Assembly (NCBI GenBank): GCA_017536695.1
Contig: JAFXGX010000008.1
Location: 1 to 54,643, forward strand
Reading direction: 5' to 3'
From: Bacteroidaceae bacterium
GTDB taxonomy: Bacteria > Bacteroidota > Bacteroidia > Bacteroidales > Bacteroidaceae
DNA: 54,643 nt
The notes below the pieces were generated by a model. It searched no databases. It was not told the DNA's origin and saw nothing but the letters and a program-made list of their open reading frames with translations. This document shows positions 28,762-44,440 of this stretch, piece after piece (positions within the stretch are counted from its first letter, which is position 1; each line of letters starts with the position of its first letter). The position numbers and the translations under genes are program-made.

Positions 28762-29595
28762 TCATTCGGTAGCTTTCCACCTGAAACTGCGGTAGATTAG
28801 ATATCCGCCCGCAATGATAAGCGGAATACTGAGTATCTGTCCCATGTTTATGAGCATGCCGTTCTCAAAGTCCACCTGAACCTCCTTTATATACTCTATA
28901 AAGAAACGGAATGTAAAAATAGTGAACAGGGTAAATCCCGAGAAGAGTCCTGAACCGACTTTGTTGCGGAATTTCCTGTAGAGGAATATGATGACAATGA
29001 ATATCACAAGGTATGCCATTGACTCGTACAGCTGCGCGGGGTGGCACGGTACCGTTATTCCTGTCTTTGCAAAGATGACACCCCATGGCGCATCGGTCGG
29101 CAGGCCTATGATTTCACTGTTCATGAAGTTGCCGAAACGTACCATTGCCGCGAAAATGGGTGCTGCAATGCCCAAGCAGTCAAGAACCCACATGAACGAC
29201 AGCTTTGTCTTCCTTATGTAGAGCAACAGTCCTATTATAACACCTATTGTTCCTCCATGGCTTGCCAGTCCGGCATATCCTGTAAACTTCCAGGCACCAT
29301 TGATTTCCTTGATGGGCAACAGCATCTCTATCGGGCGTGCAAGGTAATATTCCGGTTCGTAGAACAGGCAGTGTCCCAGGCGTGCTCCTATAAGTATACC
29401 GAAGAAACAATAGAAGAACAAGGGGTCGAAAAGCTCTTCCTTTACATTGGAGTCGTTGTAAATTTTCTTTACAACGAAGTATGCCGAAAGCAGTCCCACC
29501 AGCCAGCAGAGAGCGTAGTAACGTATCTCGAAACTGCCTATTGAGATTATGCTTTCTGACGGTGCCCAGACAATGGCATTGAAAATGGGATTCAT
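28762..29595 (-). CDS. lgt: Prolipoprotein diacylglyceryl transferase
   Basis: 277 residues with about seven membrane helices. The family core is present: HGGTIGVIIGLLLYIRK (with the conserved His), then MVRFGNFMNSEIIGLPTD, the Lgt signature with Arg, Asn and Glu, and VPCHPAQLYES. It transfers diacylglycerol from phosphatidylglycerol to the lipobox cysteine of prolipoproteins in the inner membrane. It is the host gene adjoining the left end of the integrated element; its upstream region (29596-29679) is all that separates it from that end. Confidence 0.96.
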   Translation of the reverse strand: MNPIFNAIVWAPSESIISIGSFEIRYYALCWLVGLLSAYFVVKKIYNDSNVKEELFDPLFFYCFFGILIGARLGHCLFYEPEYYLARPIEMLLPIKEINGAWKFTGYAGLASHGGTIGVIIGLLLYIRKTKLSFMWVLDCLGIAAPIFAAMVRFGNFMNSEIIGLPTDAPWGVIFAKTGITVPCHPAQLYESMAYLVIFIVIIFLYRKFRNKVGSGLFSGFTLFTIFTFRFFIEYIKEVQVDFENGMLINMGQILSIPLIIAGGYLIYRSFRWKATE

Positions 29596-29679
29596 GGCTT
29601 ATACATTAAAGCGGAAATGTGTAATTATTTGTTTAATACCTTAGTTTCCAATAATTTACAAGTTTATATTTTTTTTATA

Positions 29680-29698
29680 AGTAACAAACTAGTAACAA
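29680..29698. repeat. Candidate attL direct repeat
   Basis: AGTAACAAACTAGTAACAA matches the right copy at 36209-36227 except for one base. Each copy contains two AGTAACAA units, so it could be a core site or paired recombinase-binding sites. Confidence 0.55.
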
Positions 29699-29706
29699 TT
29701 TGTTCT

Positions 29707-29776
29707 AAAAACCCCGCTAGCGCTGGAGTGGTAACAACGGGCGGCAAGGCCCATAAATCCAGGCTAACGGGTTTTT
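29707..29776. terminator. 70-nt long multi-step hairpin at the element's left end
   Basis: AAAAACCCCGCTAGC at 29707-29721 pairs with GCTAACGGGTTTTT at 29763-29776 (one bulge, G-T pair). Inside, CTGGA pairs with TCCAG and ACGGGC with GCCCAT. Both strands end in T runs. It lies 28 bp beyond the last element gene and can act as a terminator; a site or RNA role is also possible. Confidence 0.6.
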
Positions 29777-29803
29777 GTTGCGGCAAAGGTAATAAATTAT
29801 TTT

Positions 29804-30088
29804 TTAATCTTCCACGTATTTAGTATAAGTTGAGGCGCAGAGCGTGTAAATATCCCAATAGGGTATAAGTTCGCTATAATTGGCCCGCAAGATCATAAGC
29901 CCGGCCGCCGTTGCTTTGAATTGCTTTTGTAACTCTTTACCTGGCGGGGCTGACGCAATTTGTATAGGGAATAAGTGGCCGCGTGTTTTTGCGCTAATTA
30001 TTCCGTATTGGGTTGGGTTCTCTTTCTGCATTTCTTCCAGCTGGGCGGCCATTTCATTAAATGCAGCACCAAAAGAATAATTATTCAT
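29804..30088 (-). CDS. Hypothetical 94-residue element protein
   Basis: Starts MNNYSFGAAFNEMAAQLEEM and ends TLCASTYTKYVED. The N-terminal 25 residues are helical and acidic; the middle has SAPPGKELQKQFKATAAG. No signal peptide, membrane segment or known motif is seen. It is the last gene of the element, about 240 bp from the next, with a long hairpin beyond it. Function not recognised. Confidence 0.6.
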   Translation of the reverse strand: MNNYSFGAAFNEMAAQLEEMQKENPTQYGIISAKTRGHLFPIQIASAPPGKELQKQFKATAAGLMILRANYSELIPYWDIYTLCASTYTKYVED

Positions 30089-30331
30089 ATTTCTTTACTT
30101 TACGTTTGTTGAGGTTATCAAAAAGGGGCTATAAGGCCCAAAGTTCCGCAATTTCAAAAAATTGCTTACGTTCGCGCGAGGGTGGGGGCGAGGTTTAACA
30201 GCATACCCCCCTTTTAAAAAACACCCCCCCCGGGTGGCTCAATGTTTTATGATTAAGGCGGCCGGGTGTGTGCTGCAAAATGATATAAAATATAATGTTT
30301 TTTGCCTTTCATTTGCGCTATTTCCTTTGAT
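30089..30331. other. Intergenic spacer in the element with C/G tracts
   Basis: No gene seen. It holds runs such as ACACCCCCCCCGGG (eight C) and GAGGGTGGGGGCGAGG, with AAAATTGCTTACGTTCGCGC just left of them. This could hold a promoter for the 94-residue gene or a cis-acting site; nothing definite was recognised. Confidence 0.4.
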
Positions 30332-30922
30332 TTAAACTATATATTCGGTTTGTTTTGTTCTCCTTATGGCGTGCGTTAAATCCATTTGCATAACGGCCGG
30401 GGTTCTACCTAAATAGCCTATATGTTCCCCGGGATAATACACCCGCCGCCCTACATAATGCCAAAAGGGAGTATCTTTTAAATCCGTGCTTTGCATCAAA
30501 CAGCCGCTTATATCCTTAATATCGGAATACGGGATAAAATAAGTATTTCCGTTCTTTTTGGTAATTGTTAGCCCACTTTCTCCGGCTATGAATGTGTTTT
30601 CAATGTCTGCGGCAAATTGTTTGTATGCACTTACTGGCGGCGTGGATATACAATAAACATCTTGCGTCTCATAGCCATTATAAACAACATCGTTAAAAAT
30701 ATAGACGCCGTTTTTCTTTTTCGCCTTGCATCTGATCGCATAGAAAAAATATTGATCCCAGCTAGGAATGCGCGCGCCGTGTTGTTGTTGGTAATTGTCA
30801 TTTGCTTGCTTGTTTAAGTATGCAAATACACCTACGCCAACCTCTTTAATATTTCCGTGTTCGTCATATATAATGCGGTCGGATTCATATATAAGTTTAT
30901 CTAAAAATTGTTGCTTTGTCAT
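30332..30922 (-). CDS. Hypothetical 196-residue element protein
   Basis: Begins MTKQQFLDKLIYESDRIIYD and is rich in Tyr, Asn and Gln, with segments IPSWDQYFFYAIRCKAKKK and FWHYVGRRVYYPGEHIGYLG. No recognised family, signal peptide or membrane helix. It starts one base after the stop of the 92-residue gene, so the two are co-transcribed with the primase-like gene. A role in element maintenance is inferred only from position. Confidence 0.65.
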   Translation of the reverse strand: MTKQQFLDKLIYESDRIIYDEHGNIKEVGVGVFAYLNKQANDNYQQQHGARIPSWDQYFFYAIRCKAKKKNGVYIFNDVVYNGYETQDVYCISTPPVSAYKQFAADIENTFIAGESGLTITKKNGNTYFIPYSDIKDISGCLMQSTDLKDTPFWHYVGRRVYYPGEHIGYLGRTPAVMQMDLTHAIRRTKQTEYIV

Positions 30923-30923
30923 A

Positions 30924-31202
30924 TTATTTCCTTTGATTTATATTAGTTTTTATTGTCAAATTGCTATTATCCGGGAGCGTTCCCCATTCCTCTAATAGGT
31001 CAAACATTCTTTTAATTTCCTCCGCTATTGCTGGCGGTGTCCGCGGCGTTTTCTTATACTTAGCGGCATAATCACAATAAACCTCTATAAGAGCGCACAC
31101 AAGAGCGCAAGCGCCATTAAATCCGCACTTTTTAGCTAGTGCATTTATGGCGTTATAGTCCTTTTCACTTAGTGAAAGATTTAGCCTTTTTCGTGCGCTC
31201 AT
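30924..31202 (-). CDS. Small protein with ribbon-helix-helix-like N-terminus
   Basis: 92 residues. MSARKRLNLSLSEKDYNAI, then NALAKKCGFN, resembles a ribbon-helix-helix DNA-binding start: a basic N-terminus, an RLNLSLSE strand, and two helices. The C-terminal half (PPAIAEEIKRMFDLLEEWG) is helical. It overlaps the primase-like gene by 4 bp, which suggests coupled translation and a possible role as a repressor or copy-control protein. The fold is judged by eye. Confidence 0.6.
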   Translation of the reverse strand: MSARKRLNLSLSEKDYNAINALAKKCGFNGACALVCALIEVYCDYAAKYKKTPRTPPAIAEEIKRMFDLLEEWGTLPDNSNLTIKTNINQRK

Positions 31203-32119
31203 AGTCCTATATTATCAAAATCGTGCTTTCCTATTTCGGTGCGTGCGATATAAAAGAAAGTGCCTATTTGTGTCTTATATTCCGGGTGCTTTAGTAGGTT
31301 GTTATATTTGCTTTCCGTTTGGCTGTAATCATAGCCGCTATATAGTGCGCTAATCCTATGCGCATAGCTTCGCCCGCTTTCTCCAAACGTTGAGGCCAGC
31401 GCGGAAAGTAGGCGCACCCAATCCCCGTAACTTTCCGTAATATCCCATTTGTTGGCCTCACAAGCTGAAATAACGGCCTCAACCTTTGCGGCTGTTTCGC
31501 TGGCGTTCAGTTCGCGGCCCAGGGTTTCCCGTGTGGTGTGTTCCCGTTCCGGCAAGGTATAGGCCCAGGGCTTGGCGGCTGTGTTTATATACGGGCTTTC
31601 ATCCCAGGAAATAAAACGCTTTCGGCTTATATCCTTGCACGCTTTATCAATCTCCAGCCCGGCGCGTTCAAAGTGATAGGCCAGGGCGCGGAAATATTCC
31701 CGGTGTTTGCTTGGATCTGCAATAGGAATTATTAAAACATACCCAGCCCCGCGGCAAGATTTGCCACAATATGCCACGTGCGGCACGGCTGAAATTATCT
31801 TCTTTAGATCCGTTCCGGCAAGGGCTGTATTTATTCCCTTTTCCGGCTTATAGTCAATATCTACACTAATAAAGCCGCTATGTTTTATAAGTCCAGCGCG
31901 GGAAACGTGGCTAAAAGTCCCGGAGGGTGTAAAGCAAGGCAAGGCGTCTTTTAGTGCTTGTTGTTTCGCCGGATCTTGTTCGGCCCTTAGTTCCTCAACC
32001 TTTTTCCGCCAGGTATCGGCCACAAGGGCACGGCCCAGGGAAATAGTTTCTATTTCGGTATCATCGCAATTTACGCAAGGTAAAAATGATACTTGCGCGT
32101 CAAAAATAGATTGATTCAT
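31199..32119 (-). CDS. Primase-like replication protein (BT4734/VirE_N-type with PriCT-2-like C-terminus)
   Basis: 306 residues. The N-terminal ~200 match the BT4734-like/VirE N-terminal domain found in Bacteroidales plasmids and elements, a relative of archaeo-eukaryotic primases. HSGFISVDIDYKP holds a D-x-D that could bind metal, and YCGKSCRGAGYVLIIPI and FISWDESPYIN follow. The C-terminal ~80 (SYGDWVRLLSALASTFGES) resemble primase C-terminal domain 2. It should act at the adjacent iteron array in priming replication. Catalytic completeness is not proven by eye. It begins immediately beside the iterons. Confidence 0.7.
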   Translation of the reverse strand: MNQSIFDAQVSFLPCVNCDDTEIETISLGRALVADTWRKKVEELRAEQDPAKQQALKDALPCFTPSGTFSHVSRAGLIKHSGFISVDIDYKPEKGINTALAGTDLKKIISAVPHVAYCGKSCRGAGYVLIIPIADPSKHREYFRALAYHFERAGLEIDKACKDISRKRFISWDESPYINTAAKPWAYTLPEREHTTRETLGRELNASETAAKVEAVISACEANKWDITESYGDWVRLLSALASTFGESGRSYAHRISALYSGYDYSQTESKYNNLLKHPEYKTQIGTFFYIARTEIGKHDFDNIGL

Positions 32120-32146
32120 AGAGGGTTATATATATGCGTTAAACGT

Positions 32147-32388
32147 GTGCAATATGTGCAATTGCACCTATCGCAAAAAGACGCTAAAGAGGTGCAAAGT
32201 ATATTATAAATATGTGCAATTGATTTAGGGGGATAATTAAAGCGCTGTAAATTATTAAACCTCAACGAATTAACTATATAGGTGCAAAGGTGCAAAATAG
32301 GTGCAAAATAGGTGCAATTGCACCAATTGCGGCCCATAGGTGCAAATGTGCAGCGCGCTATATATATAGCGCTGCACCTATATTGCAC
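32147..32388. repeat. Iteron array, candidate replication origin of the element
   Basis: Twelve copies of GTGCAA or its complement TTGCAC lie in 242 bp: forward at 32147, 32156, 32192, 32214, 32282, 32290, 32301, 32312 and 32340, reverse at 32162, 32318 and 32383. Two one-mismatch copies flank a 14-bp palindrome GCTATATATATAGC (32357-32370). The 32290, 32301 and 32312 copies are 11 bp apart, one helical turn. The array lies between the helicase-like and primase-like genes. Confidence 0.8.
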
Positions 32389-32407
32389 CAAACCGCTAGA
32401 GCTTATT

Positions 32408-33442
32408 TTATATATTATCCTCATCGGTGTTAATTTCGTTAAAAGGCAAAGAGTAATAAACGCGTTTTCCTTTTACCTCTCTTTCAAGGGCGCGGGTATC
32501 CGTTGCGGCTTTTATTGCGTCTTGCGCTGTTCGCTTGCTCTTTCCGTAATAGTCCATATATGCCGCCGCGAGTTCCCCAGCTGTTAAGCGTTCTTCATCT
32601 TTGAAAAGAGGTGTAAAAGCTTTAGAAAGTGCGGCCCATTTTTCAAGCTCTGTATTTCCCTCAGCTGGTGGCATTATCTTGAAATCCTCCGAGAATGTGA
32701 AAGAAAAGGCCGGAACGGGTGCAAAACGGCTGAAAGGCTGTGTAACTTTTGCCGTGTTGGTGTCCTTGTTTACCTGGTATATTTCCGCGCTCTTTTGCTG
32801 CATAATAGCGCCCAGGTGTCCGCGTGCCTCATCATTATATTTGTTAGTATGAATTAGCCCCAGGATAGCCGCCCCGCGTTGTTCTGCGTGGCTTTCCAGC
32901 TGGCGCACTACATCGCGGCTTTTTTCCTCATCGTTGAAAGATTGGCAAAGATCTACAACGCCGTCAAGAAATACGAAATCCGCGGCGTTTTCCTCAATAG
33001 CTTGCAACGTTGCGGCCAGGGCGTCCGCTGGGCCTCCATATCCGCGCAAGGTTACTATTTTAACACGTTCCGGCATAACGTTGAGGCCAGCCATAGAAAG
33101 CACGGCGCGGGCCTTTTGGCGTAACGTGTTTTTATCTTGTTCCGTATCAATCCACAAAACGGCCAAATTTTCCCGGCTGGGTGTTATGCCTATAAATTCC
33201 CCCTTTAGAGCTGCGACAATTAGAGCAAGGCCCGCCGCACTCTTTCCCGCTTTTTTAGGCCCTTGCAATGTGTGCAAGTTAGCCCGGGCAATAAGTCCGT
33301 ATTTGCCGCCCAGGGTAAAAAGAAAATCTATCGGCACATCTTCCCCCGCTACGTCTAGGTACGGCACAACGTGCCCGCCCTCCGCTGGTGTGTCTTGCTT
33401 AGGCCAATAGGTAAAATCTATTTTCTTGTTTTCTTTCATCAT
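32408..33442 (-). CDS. RecA-fold ATPase, RepA-like helicase candidate
   Basis: 344 residues. Walker A is GPKKAGKSAAGL (about residue 62), and Walker B is DFVFLDGVVDLC (about residue 145). AILGLIHTNKYNDEARGHLG resembles the sensor region of the AAA_25/RepA hexameric helicase family. The last ~80 residues (LTAGELAAAYMDYYGKSKRT) look like a winged-helix domain. Proteins of this group unwind origin DNA in plasmids and phages. It overlaps the Xis-like gene by 4 bp and lies next to the iterons. Confidence 0.8.
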   Translation of the reverse strand: MMKENKKIDFTYWPKQDTPAEGGHVVPYLDVAGEDVPIDFLFTLGGKYGLIARANLHTLQGPKKAGKSAAGLALIVAALKGEFIGITPSRENLAVLWIDTEQDKNTLRQKARAVLSMAGLNVMPERVKIVTLRGYGGPADALAATLQAIEENAADFVFLDGVVDLCQSFNDEEKSRDVVRQLESHAEQRGAAILGLIHTNKYNDEARGHLGAIMQQKSAEIYQVNKDTNTAKVTQPFSRFAPVPAFSFTFSEDFKIMPPAEGNTELEKWAALSKAFTPLFKDEERLTAGELAAAYMDYYGKSKRTAQDAIKAATDTRALEREVKGKRVYYSLPFNEINTDEDNI

Positions 33443-33720
33443 TTAAGGGGATTTGCTGCGCAATAACTAGTGGCACGGGCGGCCGCCTCTGCTTTGGTTG
33501 GTATCGGTTGCATCCTTTCGGCCCTCCATTGTTCCAGGGCCGCACGATCAAAGAGCACACGCCGCCCGCCGTATTTGAAAAATGGTATTTGCCGGGTGCT
33601 GGTTAGCTTATATAAATAGCTTTCTTTGAGGCCTAGAAATGCCGCCGCCTCTGCAAGGGATAAAAAGCCCGCCGCCATTTCTTCCGTTTGTGCTCTTTGG
33701 GTGTTCTTTTCTTCGTTCAT
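33439..33720 (-). CDS. AlpA/Xis-like helix-turn-helix protein
   Basis: 93 residues from the ATG at 33720; a longer frame upstream crosses the promoter at 33750-33781, so it is rejected. The motif FLSLAEAAAFLGLKESYLYK and FKYGGRRVLFDRAALEQW is the MerR-like excisionase/AlpA winged-helix fold. Such proteins bend att DNA to direct excision or act as activators. It is first in the operon with the helicase-like gene, opposite in role to the integrase operon to its right, which fits control of excision and replication together. Confidence 0.8.
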   Translation of the reverse strand: MNEEKNTQRAQTEEMAAGFLSLAEAAAFLGLKESYLYKLTSTRQIPFFKYGGRRVLFDRAALEQWRAERMQPIPTKAEAAARATSYCAANPLK

Positions 33721-33749
33721 ATTTTGACGCTTTATAGGTTTATTGAGCG

Positions 33750-33781
33750 CAAAAGTATAACGTAAGTAAAAGTAAATCAAA
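33750..33781 (-). promoter_or_regulatory. Promoter of the Xis/helicase operon
   Basis: On the minus strand TTTG (33781-33778), a 20-bp spacer, TACTTTTG (33757-33750): an exact Bacteroidetes promoter. It places the transcript start near 33743, 23 bp before the ATG at 33720. Confidence 0.8.
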
Positions 33782-33782
33782 A

Positions 33783-33829
33783 AGATAAACCCCCGCAAAA
33801 GTCCTTTGTTAACTTTTACGGGGGGGGGG
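33783..33829 (-). terminator. Terminator of the integrase operon with a G10 tract
   Basis: CCCCCGTAAAAGT pairs with ACTTTTGCGGGGG on the minus strand and TTTATCTTTTT follows. The right side includes ten consecutive G on the plus strand (33820-33829), likely to vary in length. It separates the integrase unit from the Xis unit. Confidence 0.7.
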
Positions 33830-33855
33830 ATAGCTTTAAAATTATTAGGTCGGTT

Positions 33856-34074
33856 TTATTCTGCGTTTTCTACGCCGTTAAGATCTTTGAAATAGGCTAA
33901 AATAGCCCTTGCCTTTCCGTCATTCCTTGCAAATAGGCGGTTGAAAAAATCTTCTAATATATCATAGTTTTCTTCATCGTTATAAAGCCATTCAGTTACT
34001 AACTTTTTACGATCTGCGTAATTTTCTAGTGCCTGGATCTCTTCCAAATGCTTTTGATATTCGTTATTATTCAT
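33856..34074 (-). CDS. Hypothetical 72-residue acidic element protein
   Basis: Starts MNNNEYQKHLEEIQALENYA and ends LNGVENAE; strongly acidic and helical throughout, with no known motif. It lies 5 bp after the 293-residue gene and before the terminator at 33783, so it is the last gene of the integrase operon. Small acidic proteins of elements can be DNA mimics, but nothing in the sequence shows this here. Function unknown. Confidence 0.6.
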   Translation of the reverse strand: MNNNEYQKHLEEIQALENYADRKKLVTEWLYNDEENYDILEDFFNRLFARNDGKARAILAYFKDLNGVENAE

Positions 34075-34079
34075 ATTCG

Positions 34080-34961
34080 TTATTTATTTAGGGTTTCAAA
34101 AATACTCTTTATTTGTTCGCTGCCTTTGCAGCTGTCCCGCGATCCTCCGCGAAAATCCGATATATACGGATCTATAACGTTACGGGCTTTGCGCTGATCT
34201 ATCCCAAAAGCTAAATAAAGCGCCTTTCTACGTATTGCATAGCCAAACGGGCCGGGTTGCATCGCATATATTGAAAACCTCCAGGCAAAAAAGGCAAATT
34301 GCGCGGCCGTTCCAAGCCAGGAAAGGCCCGTATTTGGGCGTTTTGGCTTAGGTGTAGATACTTGCCCCAAGTGATAAATAAAAGCCTCTAGCGGGCCGGA
34401 AATAAGCCCCGCACGTGTTAAGCTTTCATATAGTGCGGCCGCATCCTCAACGTTTAGGCGTTCAGCTTGTGGAATTGTGGCAATTTTTCCCCTTTTTATT
34501 GTGTCCAGCTCAACCGCCAGGCGTTGAGGTATCGTATAACGTTTAAGGGCTGAAATTTCCCCGCTTGTTATACTTAGCCCCTCAAAATCCAGGGCGCGGC
34601 ATATCTCACAAAATAAAAGATCCAGGGCGGAAATAACGGCCTCAACCTCAACGCGGGTGTTTTCCGCCTCAGCTTGTGCGGCTTTCTCTGCCTCAATGTT
34701 TGCCAGCTGTGCGCCCTTGTTTGGTTTTGGTGTTCCTGGAATATCCGCGAAATCTTGCCAGGCTTTGCGCTTTTCTCCCATTTCCTCCGCTATGCGTTCA
34801 AGATCCGCCGCCAGCTGTGCCCGGCGTTCCAGGATCGCGGAAAGTTCCCGGCCAATTTCGGCCCGGTTTGCTGCTGGATCGTGGCGCACATATTCCGCAA
34901 AGTTTCCGGCAAGATCTGCCGGGCTTGCGTTCATATATTCTAAACGTTCGTGTAGTTTCAT
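34080..34961 (-). CDS. Hypothetical coiled-coil element protein
   Basis: 293 residues. Residues about 30-110 are a predicted coiled coil (ILERRAQLAADLERIAEEMG, then EAEKAAQAEAENTRVEVEAV). The C-terminal half has TGLSWLGTAAQFAFFAWRFS and an alanine/lysine-rich end KALYLAFGIDQRKARNVI. I do not recognise a family. It starts 13 bp after the integrase stop on the same strand and is probably co-transcribed. A structural or accessory recombination role is a guess from position only. Confidence 0.6.
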   Translation of the reverse strand: MKLHERLEYMNASPADLAGNFAEYVRHDPAANRAEIGRELSAILERRAQLAADLERIAEEMGEKRKAWQDFADIPGTPKPNKGAQLANIEAEKAAQAEAENTRVEVEAVISALDLLFCEICRALDFEGLSITSGEISALKRYTIPQRLAVELDTIKRGKIATIPQAERLNVEDAAALYESLTRAGLISGPLEAFIYHLGQVSTPKPKRPNTGLSWLGTAAQFAFFAWRFSIYAMQPGPFGYAIRRKALYLAFGIDQRKARNVIDPYISDFRGGSRDSCKGSEQIKSIFETLNK

Positions 34962-34974
34962 AAGGCCCGGCGCT

Positions 34975-36153
34975 TTAATCTAGTATTCCGTTAAGAAGAT
35001 TTACGGCGGCTTGTTTCTTTTGGTCTATGATTGCCGCATAAATTTGTGTAGTCTGCACGTTTGTATGTCCTAAAAGCTTTGAAATACTATATAAGTCCGC
35101 GCCCTGGGTTAGTGCTAACGTTGCGAATGTGTGGCGGGCACAATGAAATGAAATCTTTTTAGTAAGCCCCGCACGTTTTACCCAGGTTCTTATATCGCAT
35201 TGGGTTGTAACTCTTTTAGGTAGAGTAAAAACAAGATCTTGCGGCCCTTTGTTTCCCCGTTCCGGCATAAAGCGGCGGGCCTCAGCGCTCAAAGGTAAAT
35301 ATATAATTTGGCGGGTTTTCTGCATCCTGGTTTCAATTTGCCACGTGTCCCCGTCCAGGTGTACGGCGTCCCAGGTTAAGCCCTCAATATCGGAAAGGCG
35401 CAAGCCGCAAAAGCAAGAGAAAAGAAAAGCGGCCTTTACTTGTTCGTTAGGGCATTTTGCAGCCGCAAGGGTTCTTAATTCCTCAGCTGTTAGATAGTCC
35501 CTTTCTGACGGCTGGGCTTGTGGCTTTTCGTTATCCTCAACAAGTGCCGCCGGATTTACTGAAATAAGGCCCTTTTTATATGCCTCATTCAATGCCGCCT
35601 CAAAGTTGCTGTAATAAAGCGCGCTTGTGTTTTTGGAAAGAGTGCCAGCGCCCCAACGCTGCGGCGCGTCTTTAAGGTAAGCGGCAAAACCCGCGCAAAA
35701 ATCCTTATCAATAGCGGCCAGGGTTACGGCGCGCCCTTTATATTCGCTTTCAATGTAGCGGCGCAAATGTGCGGCCGCGGTCTTTATTCCCTCCGCGGTG
35801 TTGCTGGTTTTGCGTCCGGCGTCCTTTGCGGCTTTTTCGGCTCTATCCTGGCGCTGCTGCATCCAATCCAATATAAGCACATAGCCGCCCTTGCGGTTTT
35901 TTATTCCGGCCTCCCCGTTTACGATCTCTTTAATCCTTTGGGCCTTGATCGCGTTCGCCGCGTCCATTGTTACGGCGTTTGCGTTCTTATCTTCTGCGGA
36001 TTTTTCCGGGATAATATAGAGCTTTAAAAATTCATAGGATCGCACCCCGTCCCGGTATATGTCAAGATAAATTGACTTGCTGCCTTTCGCCAGCTCTTTA
36101 AAACGAATTGTTACGGGTTCTTTAGCCCGTATCTGCTTTTTAGGCCTTGCCAT
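34975..36153 (-). CDS. Tyrosine recombinase (integrase)
   Basis: 392 residues from the ATG at 36153 (MARPKKQIRAKEPVTIRFKE); a longer reading to 36258 runs beyond the attR candidate and is rejected. A core-binding domain (residues about 100-210) precedes the catalytic domain. The catalytic residues are visible: Arg in FCGLRLSDIEGLTW, a Lys in the beta region, His-x-x-Arg in FHCARHTFATLA, His in LLGHTNVQTTQIYA with the nucleophilic Tyr. It recombines the att sites. Its promoter overlaps the right direct repeat, implying possible autoregulation. Confidence 0.93.
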   Translation of the reverse strand: MARPKKQIRAKEPVTIRFKELAKGSKSIYLDIYRDGVRSYEFLKLYIIPEKSAEDKNANAVTMDAANAIKAQRIKEIVNGEAGIKNRKGGYVLILDWMQQRQDRAEKAAKDAGRKTSNTAEGIKTAAAHLRRYIESEYKGRAVTLAAIDKDFCAGFAAYLKDAPQRWGAGTLSKNTSALYYSNFEAALNEAYKKGLISVNPAALVEDNEKPQAQPSERDYLTAEELRTLAAAKCPNEQVKAAFLFSCFCGLRLSDIEGLTWDAVHLDGDTWQIETRMQKTRQIIYLPLSAEARRFMPERGNKGPQDLVFTLPKRVTTQCDIRTWVKRAGLTKKISFHCARHTFATLALTQGADLYSISKLLGHTNVQTTQIYAAIIDQKKQAAVNLLNGILD

Positions 36154-36183
36154 ATCGTTAAATTTTATTGTTGTTACCGGGTA

Positions 36184-36217
36184 CAAATATAGGCATTTTT
36201 TCAATGCGAGTAACAAA
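36184..36217 (-). promoter_or_regulatory. Candidate integrase promoter overlapping attR
   Basis: On the minus strand TTTG (36217-36214), 22-bp spacer, TATATTTG (36191-36184). The -33 region lies within the direct repeat at 36209-36227, so bound recombinase could repress transcription. Confidence 0.55.
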
Positions 36218-36227
36218 CGAGTAACAA
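36209..36227. repeat. Candidate attR direct repeat
   Basis: AGTAACAAACGAGTAACAA, one mismatch from the left copy at 29680-29698. It lies 56 bp upstream of the integrase start. Confidence 0.55.
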
Positions 36228-36273
36228 AAAACGCGAAAAGTAACGTAAATTTTGGCAAGGTGTGGAAAGTAAA

Positions 36274-36303
36274 GTAAAAAAGAAAAGCGGCCTAAAAGCC
36301 GCT
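36274..36303 (-). terminator. Terminator of ychF
   Basis: On the minus strand AGCGGC pairs with GCCGCT (loop TTTTAG), followed by TTTTCTTTTTTACTTT. It lies 45 bp past the ychF stop, between ychF and the element. Confidence 0.75.
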
Positions 36304-36347
36304 ATATCAATGATTTATTTTTACTTTATTTTACTTACTTTTCTATC

Positions 36348-37451
36348 TTATACGTTAAAGAGGAAGTGCATGATGTCACCGTCCTGAACAACATATTCCT
36401 TGCCTTCTACACCCATCTTTCCGGCCTCTTTAACGGCTGCCTCCGAGCCATAGGCAATGTAGTCATCGTATTTTATAACCTCGGCGCGGATGAAACCTTT
36501 CTCAAAGTCAGTGTGTATTACTCCGGCGCACTGCGGTGCCTTCCAGCCCTTGCGGAATGTCCATGCCTTAACTTCCATTTCGCCGGCTGTGATGAATGTC
36601 TGAAGGTTCAGCAGGGTGTATATTGCCTTGATAAGGCGGTCGCAACCCGACTCCTTCAGTCCCATGTCCTCAAGGAACATCTGCTTCTCTTCATAACTTT
36701 CGAGTTCGGCAATGTCGGCTTCGGTCTGTGCCGATATAATCAGCAACTGTGCATTCTCGTCCTTGATTGCTTCGCGCACAGCCTCTACATACTTGTTGCC
36801 GCTTGCAGCCGATGTATCATCTACGTTGCATACATAGAGTACAGGCTTCGATGTGAGCAGAAAAAGGTTCTTTGCAACCTGTTGCTCATCCTCGGTCTCA
36901 AAAACCACTGTACGGGCCGATTTTCCCGCTTCCAGGGCCTCTTTGTACTGCATGAGTACATCGTATTCCAACTTGGCCTGCTTGTCGCCGCCCACGCGTG
37001 CCTGTTTCTCGACACGCTTTATGCGGTTCTCTATTGTCTCAAGGTCCTTGAACTGCAACTCAAGGTCAATGATTTCCTTGTCGCGTACAGGGTTCACAGA
37101 GCCGTCAACATGTACAATGTTGTCATTGTCGAAACAGCGCAGAACGTGTATGATTGCATCGGTCTCGCGTATGTTTCCGAGGAACTGGTTGCCGAGACCC
37201 TCGCCCTTGCTCGCACCCTTTACAAGGCCTGCGATGTCAACGATGTCGCATGTTGCTGGAACAATGCGTCCCGGGTGTACCAGTTCGGCGAGCTTGTTCA
37301 GTCGCTCATCGGGTACGGTAATCTGTCCCAGCTGCGCGTCGATGGTGCAGAAAGGGAAGTTTGCTGCCTGTGCCTTTGCACTTGACAGACAGTTGAAAAG
37401 TGTCGATTTTCCTACGTTGGGCAAGCCAACGATACCTGCTTTCAAAGCCAT
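36348..37451 (-). CDS. ychF: YchF (OLA1-type) P-loop ATPase
   Basis: 367 residues. P-loop GLPNVGKSTLFNCLSS, the G3 region DIVDIAGLVKGASKGEGLGN, a G4-type NVDDTS in place of NKxD (consistent with ATP preference in this family), a coiled-coil insertion, and the C-terminal TGS domain ending KEYVVQDGDIMHFLFNV. It is a ribosome-associated cytoplasmic ATPase linked to stress response. It is the right-hand host neighbour of the integrative element; the element sits beyond its terminator and does not interrupt it. Confidence 0.96.
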   Translation of the reverse strand: MALKAGIVGLPNVGKSTLFNCLSSAKAQAANFPFCTIDAQLGQITVPDERLNKLAELVHPGRIVPATCDIVDIAGLVKGASKGEGLGNQFLGNIRETDAIIHVLRCFDNDNIVHVDGSVNPVRDKEIIDLELQFKDLETIENRIKRVEKQARVGGDKQAKLEYDVLMQYKEALEAGKSARTVVFETEDEQQVAKNLFLLTSKPVLYVCNVDDTSAASGNKYVEAVREAIKDENAQLLIISAQTEADIAELESYEEKQMFLEDMGLKESGCDRLIKAIYTLLNLQTFITAGEMEVKAWTFRKGWKAPQCAGVIHTDFEKGFIRAEVIKYDDYIAYGSEAAVKEAGKMGVEGKEYVVQDGDIMHFLFNV

Positions 37452-37492
37452 AGATATTTATTTTTATATTAGTCTTACTTATAATTTGACCG

Positions 37493-37500
37493 CGAAGATA
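37493..37500 (-). promoter_or_regulatory. Candidate -7 element of ychF
   Basis: TATCTTCG on the minus strand, 41 bp before the start, the same octamer as upstream of mutS and the metallophosphoesterase. Confidence 0.4.
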
Positions 37501-37551
37501 GTGAATAATTTCGGTACTGCGAAATATGGCAAGGCTTTGTGTTCTCTCAGC

Positions 37552-38631
37552 TCATTCCCTATTGATGCCTAAAATTCTTGAAATTCTGGGGAAATGATGT
37601 CTGGCAACCGTGTCAATAACGGCCGCAAGCGCAACTATTGCCAAAATTGTGGTGATGTATATTGCAAGCAATGCAGCAGGGTTGCCATTGTGAGGAACAT
37701 GGTAATAGAGTGTTTTTATTATGGGTCCTACAACTATGCCATGCAAGGCGTACAGGACGAAGCATAACCTTGTGAGCCTTGGGGTAGGGGAGAGTTTGTT
37801 TTTCCTGAAAAGCACAGATACTATGTAGAAAGTAGCGGTTATCTTTATTATGGCGGTTGCCATGTATGCAGCGTTGATATATGCAGAGCCTTCACTGATA
37901 TTGTCAAGTGCAAACTGGGAAGGGATGTATAATATTGACGTGACTATCCCTATGTAGTCAGGTATTCTTGAGATATCAATATTATGGATGGCCAGATATA
38001 CTCCAATAGAGAAGAATACAATTGATGTGTTGCTGAACCCTGGCGCCGGTATTGCTATGTCCATTGCGTTCATCAGTATCACGAAAGCAAGGAAGAGAAT
38101 TCCGGTTGTCTTTTTTCTGAGGAATATGTAAAACAGTGGCGATGCAAGTGAAACAACCATAAGGTCGCGTACATACCATAGCGGGCCGTCGGCCGGGTCT
38201 CCGCCTATGCGTGGCAAAAAACTCCAGTAGCCGCTAAGATAGTCTGAAACCGTATAGCTTTCACCCTCTATAATGCTGAATCTTACAAATAGTATTACTA
38301 TGGCAATGGTATTCCATGCCAGATAGGGAACCAGCAAGGAATGTACCCTGCGCTTATATTTGTATATGAAGAATGACTTGTCACGCGGTGCCTGTGACCT
38401 GAAGAACAGATATCCTGAAATAACGAAAAGTGCAGGGACTATTGCTGGCAGTGCTACTAGGTAGAGGTCGTTGAATATGAATATGAGCCAACTTGGCCAT
38501 TCCGGGAATGTCCCTTCCCAGGAGGCGATAAGGGCATACAGGTTGCAGTGTGTCAGTAGGACTCCCATAATCAATGGGAACCGCAACCAGGAAATTACAT
38601 CGGTCAGTCCAACGCCGTATGGTTGTTTCAT
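37552..38631 (-). CDS. Acyltransferase family 3 membrane protein
   Basis: 359 residues with about ten membrane helices. The N-terminus has TDVISWLRFPLIMGVLLTHC with the conserved helix-1 region and a His of this family (usually R..H). WYVRDLMVVSLASPLFYIF and YALHGIVVGPIIKTLYYHV follow. Family members O-acylate cell-surface glycans at the inner membrane; the acceptor here is unknown. It lies 60 bp downstream of polA on the same strand and may be co-transcribed. Confidence 0.85.
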   Translation of the reverse strand: MKQPYGVGLTDVISWLRFPLIMGVLLTHCNLYALIASWEGTFPEWPSWLIFIFNDLYLVALPAIVPALFVISGYLFFRSQAPRDKSFFIYKYKRRVHSLLVPYLAWNTIAIVILFVRFSIIEGESYTVSDYLSGYWSFLPRIGGDPADGPLWYVRDLMVVSLASPLFYIFLRKKTTGILFLAFVILMNAMDIAIPAPGFSNTSIVFFSIGVYLAIHNIDISRIPDYIGIVTSILYIPSQFALDNISEGSAYINAAYMATAIIKITATFYIVSVLFRKNKLSPTPRLTRLCFVLYALHGIVVGPIIKTLYYHVPHNGNPAALLAIYITTILAIVALAAVIDTVARHHFPRISRILGINRE

Positions 38632-38691
38632 ATTCCTTTCAATTCAATATATGCGATATCAGTGGGGCAGTCTATGGATAAAGTTGCTTTA

Positions 38692-41520
38692 TCAATGTGC
38701 CTCAAGCCAATTGTTTCCCCAACCATGCTCGGCAATGAGCGGTACGCTCATTGTAAAGGCATTCTGCATCTCCTCAAGGACCAATGCCTGCATCCTCTCT
38801 TTCTCCTGTGGAACGACATTGAAGTTCAATTCATCGTGTACCTGCAGAATCATTGTCGAGCGCATGCCTTCTGCTTTCATGCGGCGGTAGATATTTACCA
38901 TTGCTACCTTGATGATGTCAGCTGCGCTTCCCTGGATGGGGGCATTCACTGCATTCCGTTCGGCATATCCGCGCACCACGGCATTGTGCGAGTTTATGTC
39001 GGGCAGGTAGCGCTTGCGGTGGAATATGGTCTCAACGTATCCTTTTTCCTTTGCCTCTTGTTTACATTTTTCAATGTATTGCTGCACCCCGCTGTAGGTT
39101 GCAAAATAGTTCTCTATGAGCTCTTTTGCCTCGCGGCGGTCTACGTTCATCCTCTCGGCAAGCCCGAACACAGATATACCGTATATTATGCCGAAATTGG
39201 CTACCTTTGCTTTGCGACGCTCATCCTTTGTTACCTCTTCAATAGGTTTCTTGTAAACCTTTGCGGCTGTGGCTGCATGAATGTCGTACCCGCTGCGGAA
39301 GTCCTCAATCATGTTCTTATCCCCGCTCAGATGTGCCATAATGCGCAATTCTATCTGTGAATAGTCGGCCGAGAGGAACAGGCATCCCTCATCGGGAACG
39401 AATGCCTTGCGCACCTCCTTGCCGTCCTCATCGCGTATGGGAATGTTCTGCAGGTTGGGGTTGCTTGAACTCAGGCGGCCTGTAGCGGTCACTGTCTGAT
39501 TATACGATGTATGTATCTTCCCTGTTCTTGGGTTGACCAGTTCGGGCAGTGCATCGACATATGTGCTGAGCAGCTTCTTCAGTCCGCGGTATTGTAAAAT
39601 ATTTTTAACGATAGGGTGGCGGTTCTGCAACTGTGCGAGAACATCCTCTGATGTCACATATTGTCCTGTCTTTGTCTTCTTGGGCTTGTCGACAATCTTC
39701 AGTTTCCCGAACAGAATCTCACCCACCTGCTTCGGTGATGCTATGTTGAATGACTCCCCGGCAAGTGAATATATTTGTCCTTCAATCTCTGCAAGGCGTT
39801 TTGTGAATAGGGTAGAGGTCTCTTTCAGCGATGCGGTGTCTATGCGTGCACCGTTGCGCTCCATGTAGGCAAGTACAGGCACAAGCGGCATCTCAATGTT
39901 GTAGAAGAGTTCTTCTATTTTCTCTTTTTTGAGCTCCTGTTGCAGGATATTCTTCAGCTTGAGTGTGACATCGGCATCTTCGCAAGCGTAGTCGCATACA
40001 AGGGTGGGGGGGACGTCACGCATGTTCTTCTGTCCACGTCCTTTCTCGCCTATGAGTTCTTCAATCTTTATAGTTTCGTAATTGAGGTAAATTTCGGCAA
40101 GGTAGTCCATTCCGTGATAAAGCTCGGGTTGCAGAACATAATGAGCAATCATGGTGTCGAAAAGAGGACCTCTTACCTCAATGCCGTAATTGGCTAACAC
40201 TGTGATGTCATATTTCATGTTCTGTCCCACCTTTTCGCTCTCTTCATTTTCGAAGAGTTCTCTTAAAATCTGAAGTCTCCTTTCGGTTGCCTCTCTTTCG
40301 GCAGGCATGGGTATATAGAACGCTTCGTTCTCCTTTACCGAGAGGCTGATTCCCACCAATTCGGCATCAAGAGCGTTTGTGCTTGTGGTTTCTGTGTCAA
40401 AGCACACAGATTTGCAATTTTTTAAAGCAAAGACTAAAGAGGTAATATCTTCCTCTGTATCAATGAGTTTGTAGGTGTGATTGACCTCTTTTAACGTCAA
40501 ATGGCTCGATTTTTTTTCTTCGCCCGCATCTTCGGTCGGAAAAAAATCAAAGAGAGAGCCTTGAAGAGCCGTACTTTTCGGCTCTTTCTTCTCCTCCCGG
40601 GTCTGCATTGCGGTTTCCTCTTCGGCCGCATCAAAAAGTGACGGAGCGAGGTTTGTCTTTTTTACTCTCTCCTTTAGGGCGCGCAGTTCGTAGAAGTCGA
40701 GCAGTCGGGTAAGTTCTTCCTCGTTGGGCGCTTCTCTCTTCAAGGCTTCCATGTCAAGTTCGATGGGAACATCGGTCTTAATGGTAGCAAGGAATTTGCT
40801 GAAAATAATTTTCTCCCTGTTCTCCTCGACTTTTGTCTTGAGCGCTCCTTTCAGTTCGCCGGTGTTCTCGAGCAGATTCTCGATGCTGCCGAACTGGGCT
40901 ATGAGTTTCTGTGCCGTCTTCTCTCCGACGCCGGGGCATCCGGGTATGTTGTCGCTGGAGTCGCCCATGAGTCCAAGAAGGTCTATTACCTGCAGTGTCG
41001 ATTGTATGCCGAATTTCTCTTTTACCCTTTCAACACCCATAATCTCGAACTCCTTGTCGCCGTACTTGGGACGGTATATGAAAGTTGTCTCCGAAACCAG
41101 TTGTCCGTAGTCTTTATCCGGGGTCATCATATATGTAATAATTCCCCTTTTCTCCGCGGTTTTTGCCAATGTCCCTATGACGTCATCAGCCTCATACCCC
41201 GGAACCTCGAAAATGGGGATATTATAGGCCTTTATGAACTCTTTTATGACAGGTACCGATTCCCTGATTACCTCGGGTGTCTCTTCGCGCTGTGCCTTGT
41301 ACTGCTCATAGGCCTCGTGTCTGAAGGTGGGGCCTTTAGGGTCGAAGGCGATTCCGATGTGTGTGGGATTCTCCTTCTTGAGCACATCCTCAAGGGTGTT
41401 GATGAAACCGAGTATTGCCGACGTGTTGAACCCTTTTGAGTTTATTCTCGGGTTCTTGATGAAGGCATAATATGCACGGTATATGAGCGCGTAAGCGTCT
41501 AATAAAAACAGTTTCTCCAT
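38692..41520 (-). CDS. polA: DNA polymerase I
   Basis: 942 residues from the ATG at 41520 (MEKLFLLDAYALIYRAYYAF); the longer open frame upstream has no family match and is rejected. Residues 1-290 are the 5'-3' exonuclease/FEN domain (DSSDNIPGCPGVGEKTAQKL). Residues about 370-540 are the 3'-5' exonuclease, with CFDTETTSTNALDAELVG keeping the DxE metal site. Residues about 560-942 are the polymerase with FLSADYSQIELRIMAHLSG, RRKAKVANFGIIYGIS and LQVHDELNF. All three activities seem intact. It processes Okazaki fragments and fills repair gaps. Confidence 0.97.
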   Translation of the reverse strand: MEKLFLLDAYALIYRAYYAFIKNPRINSKGFNTSAILGFINTLEDVLKKENPTHIGIAFDPKGPTFRHEAYEQYKAQREETPEVIRESVPVIKEFIKAYNIPIFEVPGYEADDVIGTLAKTAEKRGIITYMMTPDKDYGQLVSETTFIYRPKYGDKEFEIMGVERVKEKFGIQSTLQVIDLLGLMGDSSDNIPGCPGVGEKTAQKLIAQFGSIENLLENTGELKGALKTKVEENREKIIFSKFLATIKTDVPIELDMEALKREAPNEEELTRLLDFYELRALKERVKKTNLAPSLFDAAEEETAMQTREEKKEPKSTALQGSLFDFFPTEDAGEEKKSSHLTLKEVNHTYKLIDTEEDITSLVFALKNCKSVCFDTETTSTNALDAELVGISLSVKENEAFYIPMPAEREATERRLQILRELFENEESEKVGQNMKYDITVLANYGIEVRGPLFDTMIAHYVLQPELYHGMDYLAEIYLNYETIKIEELIGEKGRGQKNMRDVPPTLVCDYACEDADVTLKLKNILQQELKKEKIEELFYNIEMPLVPVLAYMERNGARIDTASLKETSTLFTKRLAEIEGQIYSLAGESFNIASPKQVGEILFGKLKIVDKPKKTKTGQYVTSEDVLAQLQNRHPIVKNILQYRGLKKLLSTYVDALPELVNPRTGKIHTSYNQTVTATGRLSSSNPNLQNIPIRDEDGKEVRKAFVPDEGCLFLSADYSQIELRIMAHLSGDKNMIEDFRSGYDIHAATAAKVYKKPIEEVTKDERRKAKVANFGIIYGISVFGLAERMNVDRREAKELIENYFATYSGVQQYIEKCKQEAKEKGYVETIFHRKRYLPDINSHNAVVRGYAERNAVNAPIQGSAADIIKVAMVNIYRRMKAEGMRSTMILQVHDELNFNVVPQEKERMQALVLEEMQNAFTMSVPLIAEHGWGNNWLEAH

Positions 41521-41556
41521 TTTACAATTCATAAGTGAACGTAAAAATACATATTT

Positions 41557-41591
41557 TTTGCTTTCAAACATATTCTTTTTTATTACTTTTG
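41557..41591 (+). promoter_or_regulatory. Candidate promoter of the polyprenyl synthase gene
   Basis: TTTG at 41557-41560 and TACTTTTG at 41584-41591. The -7 element is exact; the 23-bp spacer is a little long. Confidence 0.5.
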
Positions 41592-41662
41592 TATAATATT
41601 CAGGGAATAGTGGCCGTTGGCCTGTTATTTCTACAGTATGTTTATTTTTCAACTTTCTTGAT

Positions 41663-42631
41663 ATGCTGAATACTATAACGAGACCAATAGAGAAGGAGAT
41701 GGCGATGTTCAACAGCTATTTCGAATCTCAGTTTAAAAGCGACTTGCCGTTGCTTGACTCGGCTTTGAGGTATGTCAACGAGGGTACAGGCAAGAAGATG
41801 CGTCCGATATTGCTGCTTCTTGTAGCCAAGTATCTTGGCAATTTAAATATCAAGATGCTGGCATCGGCGTCGGCAATGGAAATGTTGCATACGGCGAGCC
41901 TTCTCCATGATGATGTAATAGATGAGAGTGACAAACGCAGGGGGCGCCCGTCGGTAAATGTTGCCTACAACAACAGCATAGCGGTTCTTGTCGGTGACTA
42001 TATTCTGTCGCAGTCGCTCAATAATGCGGCCACTACACGTGACTACAGGATAGTGGAGGAACTTTCAATCCTCGGCAAGGCTCTTACACGCGGCGAGCTC
42101 ATGCAGCTCGACTTGCAGCGCAACGGCTCATACAGCGAGGAGAACTATATCAGCGTGATAAAGTACAAGACCGCCTCATTGTTTGTATGCTGTTGTGCAT
42201 GTGCAGTATATTCGGCCGATGCCGATACGGAGATGCTCGAAAGGTTCAAGAAATTCGGTGAAAACATCGGAATATGCTTCCAGATTAAGGATGACCTGTT
42301 CGATTATTATTCCAACGATGTAGGCAAGCCTACAGGCAGTGACATGCGTGAGGGAAAGATTACACTCCCGGCCTTGTATGTATTGGAGAACAGCAACAAC
42401 CCTATTTTGGAGCCTATCCGTGCGAAGCTCACGGCATCGCAGTTCCTCGATGAGAACGAGATAGGGCAGCTGATAAGGATTTCAATAGAGGAGGGTGGCA
42501 TCAGGTATGCCGAGAATATGATTGAACGCTATCGCTCCGAGGCTCTCGCACTGCTTCCCGATGATATTTCCGATGAGTTGAGAGAGGCTCTGACGGCGTA
42601 TATCGATTATGTCATCAAGCGCGACAAATAA
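41663..42631 (+). CDS. ispB: Polyprenyl diphosphate synthase
   Basis: 322 residues of the trans-isoprenyl synthase family. Both aspartate-rich motifs are present: LLHDDVIDESDKRRGRPS (first, about residue 85) and FQIKDDLFDYYSND (second, about residue 210), with GKKMRPILLLL upstream. It elongates farnesyl diphosphate with isopentenyl units, probably for the menaquinone side chain. The small residues before the first motif are compatible with long products, but chain length is not certain. It diverges from polA and converges on deoC across a palindromic terminator. Confidence 0.9.
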   Translation: MLNTITRPIEKEMAMFNSYFESQFKSDLPLLDSALRYVNEGTGKKMRPILLLLVAKYLGNLNIKMLASASAMEMLHTASLLHDDVIDESDKRRGRPSVNVAYNNSIAVLVGDYILSQSLNNAATTRDYRIVEELSILGKALTRGELMQLDLQRNGSYSEENYISVIKYKTASLFVCCCACAVYSADADTEMLERFKKFGENIGICFQIKDDLFDYYSNDVGKPTGSDMREGKITLPALYVLENSNNPILEPIRAKLTASQFLDENEIGQLIRISIEEGGIRYAENMIERYRSEALALLPDDISDELREALTAYIDYVIKRDK

Positions 42632-42641
42632 TTGACGTTAC

Positions 42642-42683
42642 ATATACATATAAAGGCGGCCATGGCCGCCTTTATATGTATAT
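42642..42683. terminator. 42-bp perfect palindrome between convergent genes
   Basis: A perfect palindrome centred at 42662/42663, half ATATACATATAAAGGCGGCCA. It lies 11 bp past ispB and 16 bp past deoC, so it can end both transcripts. Confidence 0.8.
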
Positions 42684-42698
42684 TATTATGCTTGTCTA

Positions 42699-43640
42699 TC
42701 AGAAGAATTTTGTCTCCTCGCCGACAATTTCGCTGAGGCAGAGGTTTGCCAGACGGCTTGTTCCGAGGCGGAAAAGCTCATTGGTCAGCCATTCCTCTCC
42801 TAACAGCTCTTTTACTATCGTGTAGTACACGAGTGCATCGTGGACGGTGTTAATGCCTCCGGCGGGCTTAAAACCGATTTTACGGCCTGTTTTCTGATAG
42901 TAATCCTTGATGGTGCTGCACATTACATAGGCGGCTTCTGGTGTCGCAGCCGGCGATTCCTTGCCGGTTGAGGTCTTTATGAAGTCTGCACCTGAATATA
43001 TCGATAGAATCGATGCTTTCCTGATATTCTCGGCGCTCTTCAGGGCTCCTGTTTCCAGGATGACCTTCAGGTGTTTCTCGCCGCATACGCTCTTGAGCTC
43101 CTGTATCTCATCACACACTCCTTCGTAGTCGCCGCTGAGGAACTTGCCTACGCTCAGTACGATGTCAATCTCTGTAGCGCCGTCGTGTATTGCCATGGCT
43201 GTCTCGGCAACCTTAATCTCCTGGAATGTCTGCGAAGAGGGGAATCCGCCCGATACGCATGCGATGCCTATATTCTCAACCTGCAGTGTCTCGTTGACAA
43301 TCTTTGCGAAGTTAGGATATACGCATATTGCCGCGACATTCTTCAGGTCGGGGTAGGTGTCATCGAACTCGTTTACCTTCTCTGTAAATGCCATTACGCT
43401 CTCCTCGCTGTCGGTGCATTTGAGGGTAGTGAGGTCTATGCAGTTGAAAAGGAACTTCTTTACCTCAAGGGTGTTGTTCTTTTCAACCTTCTCCTCTATC
43501 AGTCGCTTTACATTGGCTGCAACCTCTTCATCGCTCATTGTATTGCCATATTCGGCAATGACAAAATCATATTTGCTTTCCATGTCGGCGTTATGGTGGT
43601 GTTCACCATGGCCGCAGTTACAATTCTCGCTCATTGTCAT
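42699..43640 (-). CDS. deoC: Deoxyribose-phosphate aldolase
   Basis: 313 residues, longer at the N-terminus than many DeoC proteins because of a His/Cys-rich start (NCNCGHGEHHHNADME). The TIM-barrel core has CVSGGFPSSQTFQEIKVAE, GATEIDIVLSVGKFLSG, VILETGAL and the Schiff-base Lys in GADFIKTSTGK (about residue 228). It cleaves 2-deoxyribose-5-phosphate to acetaldehyde and glyceraldehyde-3-phosphate. The ATG overlaps the stop of the MazG-like gene (ATGA), so they are coupled. The CxC-H-rich start may bind a metal, or be removable since an ATG also lies at 43634. Confidence 0.93.
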   Translation of the reverse strand: MTMSENCNCGHGEHHHNADMESKYDFVIAEYGNTMSDEEVAANVKRLIEEKVEKNNTLEVKKFLFNCIDLTTLKCTDSEESVMAFTEKVNEFDDTYPDLKNVAAICVYPNFAKIVNETLQVENIGIACVSGGFPSSQTFQEIKVAETAMAIHDGATEIDIVLSVGKFLSGDYEGVCDEIQELKSVCGEKHLKVILETGALKSAENIRKASILSIYSGADFIKTSTGKESPAATPEAAYVMCSTIKDYYQKTGRKIGFKPAGGINTVHDALVYYTIVKELLGEEWLTNELFRLGTSRLANLCLSEIVGEETKFF

Positions 43641-43960: not shown

Positions 43961-43961
43961 G

Positions 43962-44414: not shown

Positions 44415-44432
44415 AACGAACTTTGTATTGCG

Positions 44433-44440
44433 CAAAGATA
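44433..44440 (-). promoter_or_regulatory. Candidate -7 element of dtd
   Basis: TATCTTTG on the minus strand between the uvrC stop and dtd, an exact TAnnTTTG match. The -33 position falls within uvrC with no TTTG. Confidence 0.4.

Follow-up and report, generated by a model that had tools for sequence, protein, structure and literature searches.

The described systems closest to the element reported here are phage-inducible chromosomal islands (PICIs), P4 satellites and NBU1 of Bacteroides. In the account given in PMC6092414, PICI origins contain iteron sets that flank an AT-rich stretch, and PICIs as outlined there share with the present element an integrase gene (int), an AlpA-type regulator, a primase and initiator, an origin with two such iteron sets and the absence of virion genes. 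P4 satellites, as portrayed in PMC6092414 and PMC7145576, have in common with it int, an AlpA/Vis-type protein and an initiator and primase of their own, while NBU1, going by its description in PMC5704250, resembles it in a tyrosine integrase that acts at the 3′ end of a gene, in occurrence in the Bacteroides group and in having no mating pore of its own. The element lies in a 54,643-nt stretch of a Bacteroidaceae genome (contig JAFXGX010000008.1, positions 1–54,643 of the forward strand, assembly GCA_017536695.1; the whole stretch is hereafter called the window), and its host belongs to the Bacteroidota, which are major gut and rumen bacteria. It is, with good support, a complete and recently mobile integrative element that depends on a helper. 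Since it is without transfer machinery of its own, the element probably hitchhikes, perhaps in phage particles, and we give about an even chance to the overall reading proposed below, in which this 6.75-kb hitcher is most likely moved by phage packaging. Titles and abstract openings retrieved in searches of the open-access literature describe no satellite in Bacteroidota or Bacteroides, and at title and abstract level we found no such element under ychF attachment sites or antisense integrase control. We newly report, from the far end, a probable small RNA of conserved structure; its loop fits the int leader, and the two show compensating changes.

Extent, integration site and recent movement

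The element occupies positions 29598–36365, in the 3′ end of ychF (36348–37451), and keeps this gene apart from lgt (28762–29595). In 30 of the 30 same-genus genomes in which this junction was examined (L052–L080 and L092), lgt directly follows ychF, the lgt match beginning 5–37 nt past the ychF end; a ychF match was obtained in 39 other genomes. The integration repeats agree at 17 of 19 bases and comprise attL (36347–36365, CTTATACGTTAAAGAGGAA), in which the ychF 3′ end is re-encoded by the element, and attR (29598–29616, CTTATACATTAAAGCGGAA), a far-end copy of that end (att sites and arm-type repeats are given without strand). Because the empty site of genome G229 (TTCCGCTTTAATGTATAAGCCATGAAT) equals the host side of attR, while attL carries TTCCTCTTTAACGTATAAGATAG, as does the identical attL of the SIG166 copy described below, the crossover is placed at CA(C/T)TTCC. 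The element re-encodes the last YchF codons, with HFLFNV in place of HFRFNV, and the host gene therefore stays whole. At the far end, the ychF tail is repeated in all nine loci searched (window, L002–L008 and L010; the contig of L009, which was left out, stops ~30 bases past the RNA gene), and at the near end the copy of L005, which differs from those of the other loci, was missed by the search expression. With its gene for a tyrosine integrase, the direct repeats that bound it and an empty site in relatives, it qualifies as a site-specific integrative element. A preliminary description of the window had drawn the edges at 29680 and 36227, within an arm-type repeat pair, AGTAACAAA(C), at 29680–29698 (right end) and 36209–36227 (left end). 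These repeats are internal, and both the ychF-tail copies and the empty site place the ends outside them, at 29598 and 36365; they were rejected as att sites and are probably arm sites of the integrase.

A primase scan of the genome collection returned 13 loci, nine of which (L002–L010) belong to the family by a primase identity of 64–98%. The gene order proposed for searching in Bacteroidales genomes was found at ychF in other metagenome-assembled genomes of that order: ychF lies beside int on the locus itself in six cases (L003–L008) and on a second contig in the L002 genome, while in L010 a single gene lies between the end of the element and lgt. The elements of relatives measure ~7.7–7.8 kb. 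L007 comes from goat rumen, and several further members are held by RUG bins, which we take to be rumen genomes; L009 is a 4.4-kb contig in a bin named Elusimicrobiaceae and is possibly misbinned. Across 393 genomes of the order, the ATPase profile found a close match in its own genome alone, the other 34 matching at E 4e-28 or weaker.

The copy in genome SIG166 (L002) shares 98.3% DNA identity with the window element over 5551 bp, and residues 1–335 of its integrase, encoded on another contig, are 100% identical to those of the window integrase. Since this copy sits in a genome of which GltX is 60% identical to that of the window genome (YchF 72%), the element moved recently. A decayed fragment of a larger element, which the preliminary description had held out as an alternative, was rejected on account of intact reading frames, a plan that relatives share and the recent move. 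In SIG166 (L002 positions 1–2525 and the end of G619 contig 17), int is broken at about residue 335 and another tyrosine integrase lies past the break, which looks like the insertion of a second element into int.

Replication genes, iterons and a probable far-end small RNA

All nine genes lie on the minus strand, where the order of transcription is int, g293, a gene for a 72-aa protein, a helix-turn-helix (HTH) gene, an AAA_25 ATPase gene, iterons, a primase gene, g3, g2, g1 and the RNA gene. Scans of the nine proteins against Pfam, PHROGs and NCBIfam, together with repeat counts, bear out the integrase, excisionase-type HTH protein, RecA-fold ATPase, primase-like protein and iterons of the preliminary description. 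The integrase (34975–36153) matches Phage_integrase at 1e-25 and Arm-DNA-bind_5. The 93-aa HTH_17 protein of excisionase/AlpA type (33439–33720) scores above cut-off for TIGR01764 and below it for Phage_AlpA (0.0039). The RecA-fold ATPase (32408–33442; AAA_25 2e-16) is a probable initiator-helicase. The primase-like protein (31199–32119; BT4734-like_N 2e-12, PriCT_2 8e-10) has the catalytic motif I, hhhDhD, reported for BT4734-like archaeo-eukaryotic primases (AEPs) in PMC5862659; the motif reads VDID, with D87 and D89 invariant in 13 rows, and profile and motif together assign the protein to that family.

Between the ATPase and primase genes lies an iteron region (32130–32390) that is probably the replication origin, with GGTGCA sets flanking GCGCTATATATATAGCGC and a following array of 11-bp spacing. 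GGTGCA occurs 10 times within 32163–32389, and 40 times across the whole window against 25 expected. The arrangement of iteron sets around an AT-rich region corresponds to the PICI origin layout, and it is supported, on sequence evidence, that the element carries its own replicon, with iterons between helicase and AEP primase. An open reading frame at 32116–32424 was rejected as a gene, as it overlies the iterons and has no family, its only traces beyond the near-identical L002 being partial ones in L007 (42 and 54%).

The gap between ATPase and primase has a similar layout in each element, around a palindrome or TA-rich stretch, but the repeated word differs: GCACCTATTTT in the window and L007, ACGGATATTTT in L003–L006 and L008, GTCGTA in L009, GCGCATATTT in L010 and TGTACAC in the distant L081. 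From about residue 262 on, the ATPase varies with iteron type. Residues 1–262 are 77–86% identical between iteron types within the family and 83% identical between the window and L007; past residue 262 the values are 30–49% between types and 70% for the window and L007, the sole cross-lineage pair sharing an iteron (the ATPase of L010 is incomplete, and that of L081 shows 40–46% for residues 1–262 and 22–31% for the rest). Because the primase halves and g3 failed to track iteron type, the ATPase domain is favoured for iteron recognition, and we infer from this one independent pair that its C-terminal part recognises the iterons.

At the far end, a conserved small RNA gene that had been overlooked in the preliminary description is predicted at 29707–29778 (minus strand, ends approximate), with a hairpin, the loop GUUGUUACC at 29730–29738 and a terminator T-run. 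It is preceded by a TAnnTTTG box (29784–29791, minus strand), presumably a Bacteroidota promoter box of the −7 type, and box, hairpin and T-run recur in all 10 family loci (window, L002–L010). An RNA model (R1) built from nine of these loci scored 65–105 bits for the 10, returned nothing at E up to 1 in 16 other sources and matched one of 201 family genomes, its own. On eight distinct rows, 91.8% of cells pair, compared with 85.1% in shuffles and at most 59.7% in slid versions. Five stem pairs change on both sides, a number reached by 17 of 500 shuffles and inflated by related rows, and the covariation score was reached by none of the 500. Folded singly, seven of seven RNAs gave z values of −3.05 to −4.43 (window −3.05).

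The loop can pair with complementary bases in the int leader (36170–36178; GGTAACAAC on the minus strand); a putative −7 type promoter box of int, TATATTTG, is at 36184–36191 (minus strand). This complementarity holds in the seven elements that have both parts, over 9 bases in the window and 10–11 in the others. Cognate duplexes reach −15.7 to −17.7 kcal/mol, while swapped ones reach −9.0 to −9.7, and the int leader supplies the seven best cognate-specific scores among 1103 overlapping aligned windows (window element and L003). The small RNA may therefore restrain the integrase.

The remaining genes are less readily assigned. g293 (34080–34961) encodes a helical 293-aa protein conserved beside int, with no solved-structure match at E ≤ 0.001 (its sole profile match is the 75-residue chain Sc-apCC-2-MCL-1-4, at 0.059). 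The 72-aa protein (33856–34074) was assigned no family, g2 (30332–30922) encodes a cargo-like, poorly conserved 196-aa protein, judged from family scans and comparison with L002, and g1 (29804–30088) a conserved small alpha+beta protein of 94 aa with a weak Hfq/Sm-like topology. Solved-structure profile searches with g3, the ATPase and the primase gave no result, and PADLOC had no match for five of the nine window proteins and five proteins of relatives. Compared with the near-identical L002 copy, g2 has 15 nonsynonymous and 3 synonymous changes and the ATPase the opposite (3 and 15); g293 (7 and 1) and the primase (7 and 2) lean like g2, and the sum over eight genes is 35 nonsynonymous and 31 synonymous.

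The g3 protein and the means of transfer

No relaxase, coupling-protein, virion, phage structural or lytic gene was recognised among the nine proteins in the family scans, and Foldseek searches with folded g293 and g1 found no match at E ≤ 0.001 and hence no relaxase or capsid fold for either. This agrees with the preliminary description, which had listed no transfer or virion genes, had named a hidden relaxase or capsid as grounds for giving up its interpretation and had concluded that transfer would need a helper. A weak match of the HTH protein cuts the other way: phrog_57 (6.5e-5), a terminase-small-subunit family, stands behind the excisionase/HTH families phrog_25262 (4e-17) and phrog_66 (2e-11), is of a kind that HTH proteins may give and is the only TerS-family match in the element.

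The likely phage connection comes from g3 (30924–31202), a 92-aa protein of ribbon-helix-helix (RHH) type. Outside the family, its profile matched one of 200 other host-family genomes, in a prophage of G064, where the homologue lies 281 nt upstream of the terminase small subunit gene (TerS), followed by the terminase large subunit (TerL), portal and major head genes. With this homologue as query, three of 50,697 phage records matched, namely Bacteroides phages F1, F2 and F4, and the g3 of L007 retrieved the same three at 0.03. The order in F1 is helicase, g3-like, HNH, TerS, TerL and portal; the F4 record ends at HNH, and the gene order of F2 was left out. Reciprocal profiles of g3 and its phage homologue scored 26.7–44.8 bits against at most 8.5 for shuffles, and g3 had no match in viral contigs.

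Several results weigh against phage packaging and the fuller mechanism given below. Phage collections, in which a search had been proposed, yielded no close copy: viral contigs queried with int, primase, ATPase, g1 and g3 held only distant primases (28–29%) and ATPases (22–30%), and phage records held no close copy for DNA and g293 queries and otherwise only distant primases and ATPases. Plasmids likewise held no close copy of the element. The window genome (97% complete) has a single TerL-bearing prophage piece, on contig 19, which shares no exact match of at least 14 bases with the element. (This piece, L123 at ~33000–44600 of that contig, has a terminase large subunit matching phrog_2 at 5e-21 and a weak virion-structural match.) No helper was identified among the nine carrier genomes, because TraG occurs in one and the terminase matches of the other eight may be noise; the phrog_2 search also matched 11 of 14 controls, and matches weaker than 1e-16 were set aside. 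Neither a packaging signal nor a particle-borne copy was found in these searches, the iteron rule comes from a single pair, and conjugation would account at least as well for the spread between distant genomes. This last point, with the near-identical copy in a distant genome, also suits a relaxase-less integrative mobilizable element of the iOriT type, in which a resident conjugative element would supply the relaxase that recognises an origin of transfer on the circle, g3 being a relaxosome accessory. Relaxase-less elements, some with one accessory factor, figure in what PMC5704250 and PMC11389934 report, and three of four candidate sister elements with similar replicon genes bear a Mob_Pre relaxase. 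Among eight members, g3 gives weak or sub-threshold Pfam scores for RHH_1 (2/8, best 0.0011), MobC_2 (3/8, best 0.0094) and NikA-like (3/8, best 0.047), but those for MobC_2 and NikA-like are all below cut-off, the g3 homologues found are phage genes, with none in 72,556 plasmids for two queries, and neither a PF03432 relaxase nor TraG was found in the window genome, which is not the only place where a helper could reside. We consider this explanation rather unlikely, and a phage satellite is favoured over it, not proven. Still less probable is an integrative plasmid that replicates but has no transfer system of its own and reaches new hosts through generalized transduction, vesicles or DNA uptake; the complete replicon and integration module, the lack of a recognised transfer gene and the failure to find a helper would suit it, but a plan and site conserved across genera and the recent long-distance move suggest regular transfer.

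The RNA-leader pairing has a rival of its own, in which loop and leader are DNA sites of one protein (Int or g3) without RNA–mRNA pairing. A single shared DNA-binding regulator could give the same pattern, since both sites would change together, and GTAACAA is also the repeated arm motif; the leader site is, however, reversed relative to the arm repeats, the match spans 9–11 bases, past the arm motif, and changes in pairs, and the promoter box, the co-varying stems and the terminator are features of an RNA. We regard this alternative as a real possibility, though the less probable one. On the same side of the balance, the loop–leader rule amounts to one switch, because two loop types exist, the absolute duplex energy of the int leader ranks 36–165 among 1343–1557 overlapping windows of the element, −15.5 is attained by both loops at two further places, and further pair types of the RNA fall within shuffles (131 of 500).

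Under the favoured reading of a phage satellite, the integrase joins attP to the ychF 3′ end at CA(C/T)TTCC and re-encodes the last YchF codons, as the sequence shows, and the HTH protein would direct excision to a circle. The ATPase C-terminal domain, as co-variation suggests, would bind the iterons, and the ATPase, in the role of initiator-helicase, would open the TA-rich palindrome; copying would be started by the AEP primase, so that the circle multiplies. Paired changes suggest that the far-end RNA binds the int leader by base pairing and keeps integrase levels down. Transfer would then use the machinery of another element, most likely a phage that packages the copies; the RHH protein, whose phage relative is encoded near terminase, would act in packaging or late control. 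A stronger version, an undescribed Bacteroidota satellite family in ychF in which the RHH protein redirects helper packaging, iterons and initiator C-terminal domain swap and a co-evolving RNA times the integrase, is tentative and unlikely to hold as a whole. Because its ends are defined, its empty site is known, two near-identical copies attest to its mobility and an RNA serves as marker, the ychF element family makes helper dependence testable, and the paired switching of iterons with a protein domain and of RNA loop with int leader makes specific predictions on how islands separate replicons and control integration.

Comparison with sister elements and described systems

Sister elements of the host family (L084, L086, L090, L088 and L089) share int, a DUF3987- or AAA-type ATPase, a BT4734 primase and a similar replicon order. 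Unlike the ychF element, L084, L086 and L090 have after the replicon genes a Mob_Pre relaxase, which we take to be of the MobV class (L090 starts inside the primase, its upstream genes being unseen), while L088 continues with RusA, a DUF5681-like protein and a tape-measure-like fragment, and L089 with a RusA-length gene and a phrog_2412 protein. Because these elements continue with either a relaxase or phage-like genes, hitchers of both kinds seem to make use of this replicon type. L088 (G182 contig 1, ~3300–14139) encodes RusA, a small KGTPNK-type protein and a 522-aa protein that matches residues 1268–1671 of the 1708-residue tape-measure family phrog_9959 at 1.3e-56, and is a possible satellite with a tail gene. 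A fecal 'Bacteriophage sp.' contig (MT836914.1, 88–8256; L048) is almost exactly one int-HTH-primase element, bounded by 26-nt direct repeats and with a restriction-endonuclease-like gene. A Parabacteroides distasonis 'plasmid' record (NZ_OY725764.1; L050) contains housekeeping genes as well as an integrated element of similar broad plan, and looks like a chromosome piece.

NBU1, as described in PMC5704250, has a MobP relaxase and a tRNA-Leu site, whereas the present element has no recognised relaxase and uses ychF. The phage-satellite plan proposed in the preliminary description stands in so far as the element is compact and helper-dependent and g3 homologues lie beside phage packaging genes, but the PICI version of that plan does not fit: the element is transcribed in a single direction, shows no divergently oriented regulator, measures 6.75 kb against the ~15 kb given for Gram-positive PICIs, keeps its BT4734-family primase separate from the AAA_25 ATPase and has no identified interference or terS gene. 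It departs from P4 satellites in that no P4 morphogenesis gene was recognised by family search and in that primase and helicase are on separate genes. P4 also uses a small RNA, for immunity; the RNA of the ychF element matches the int leader.

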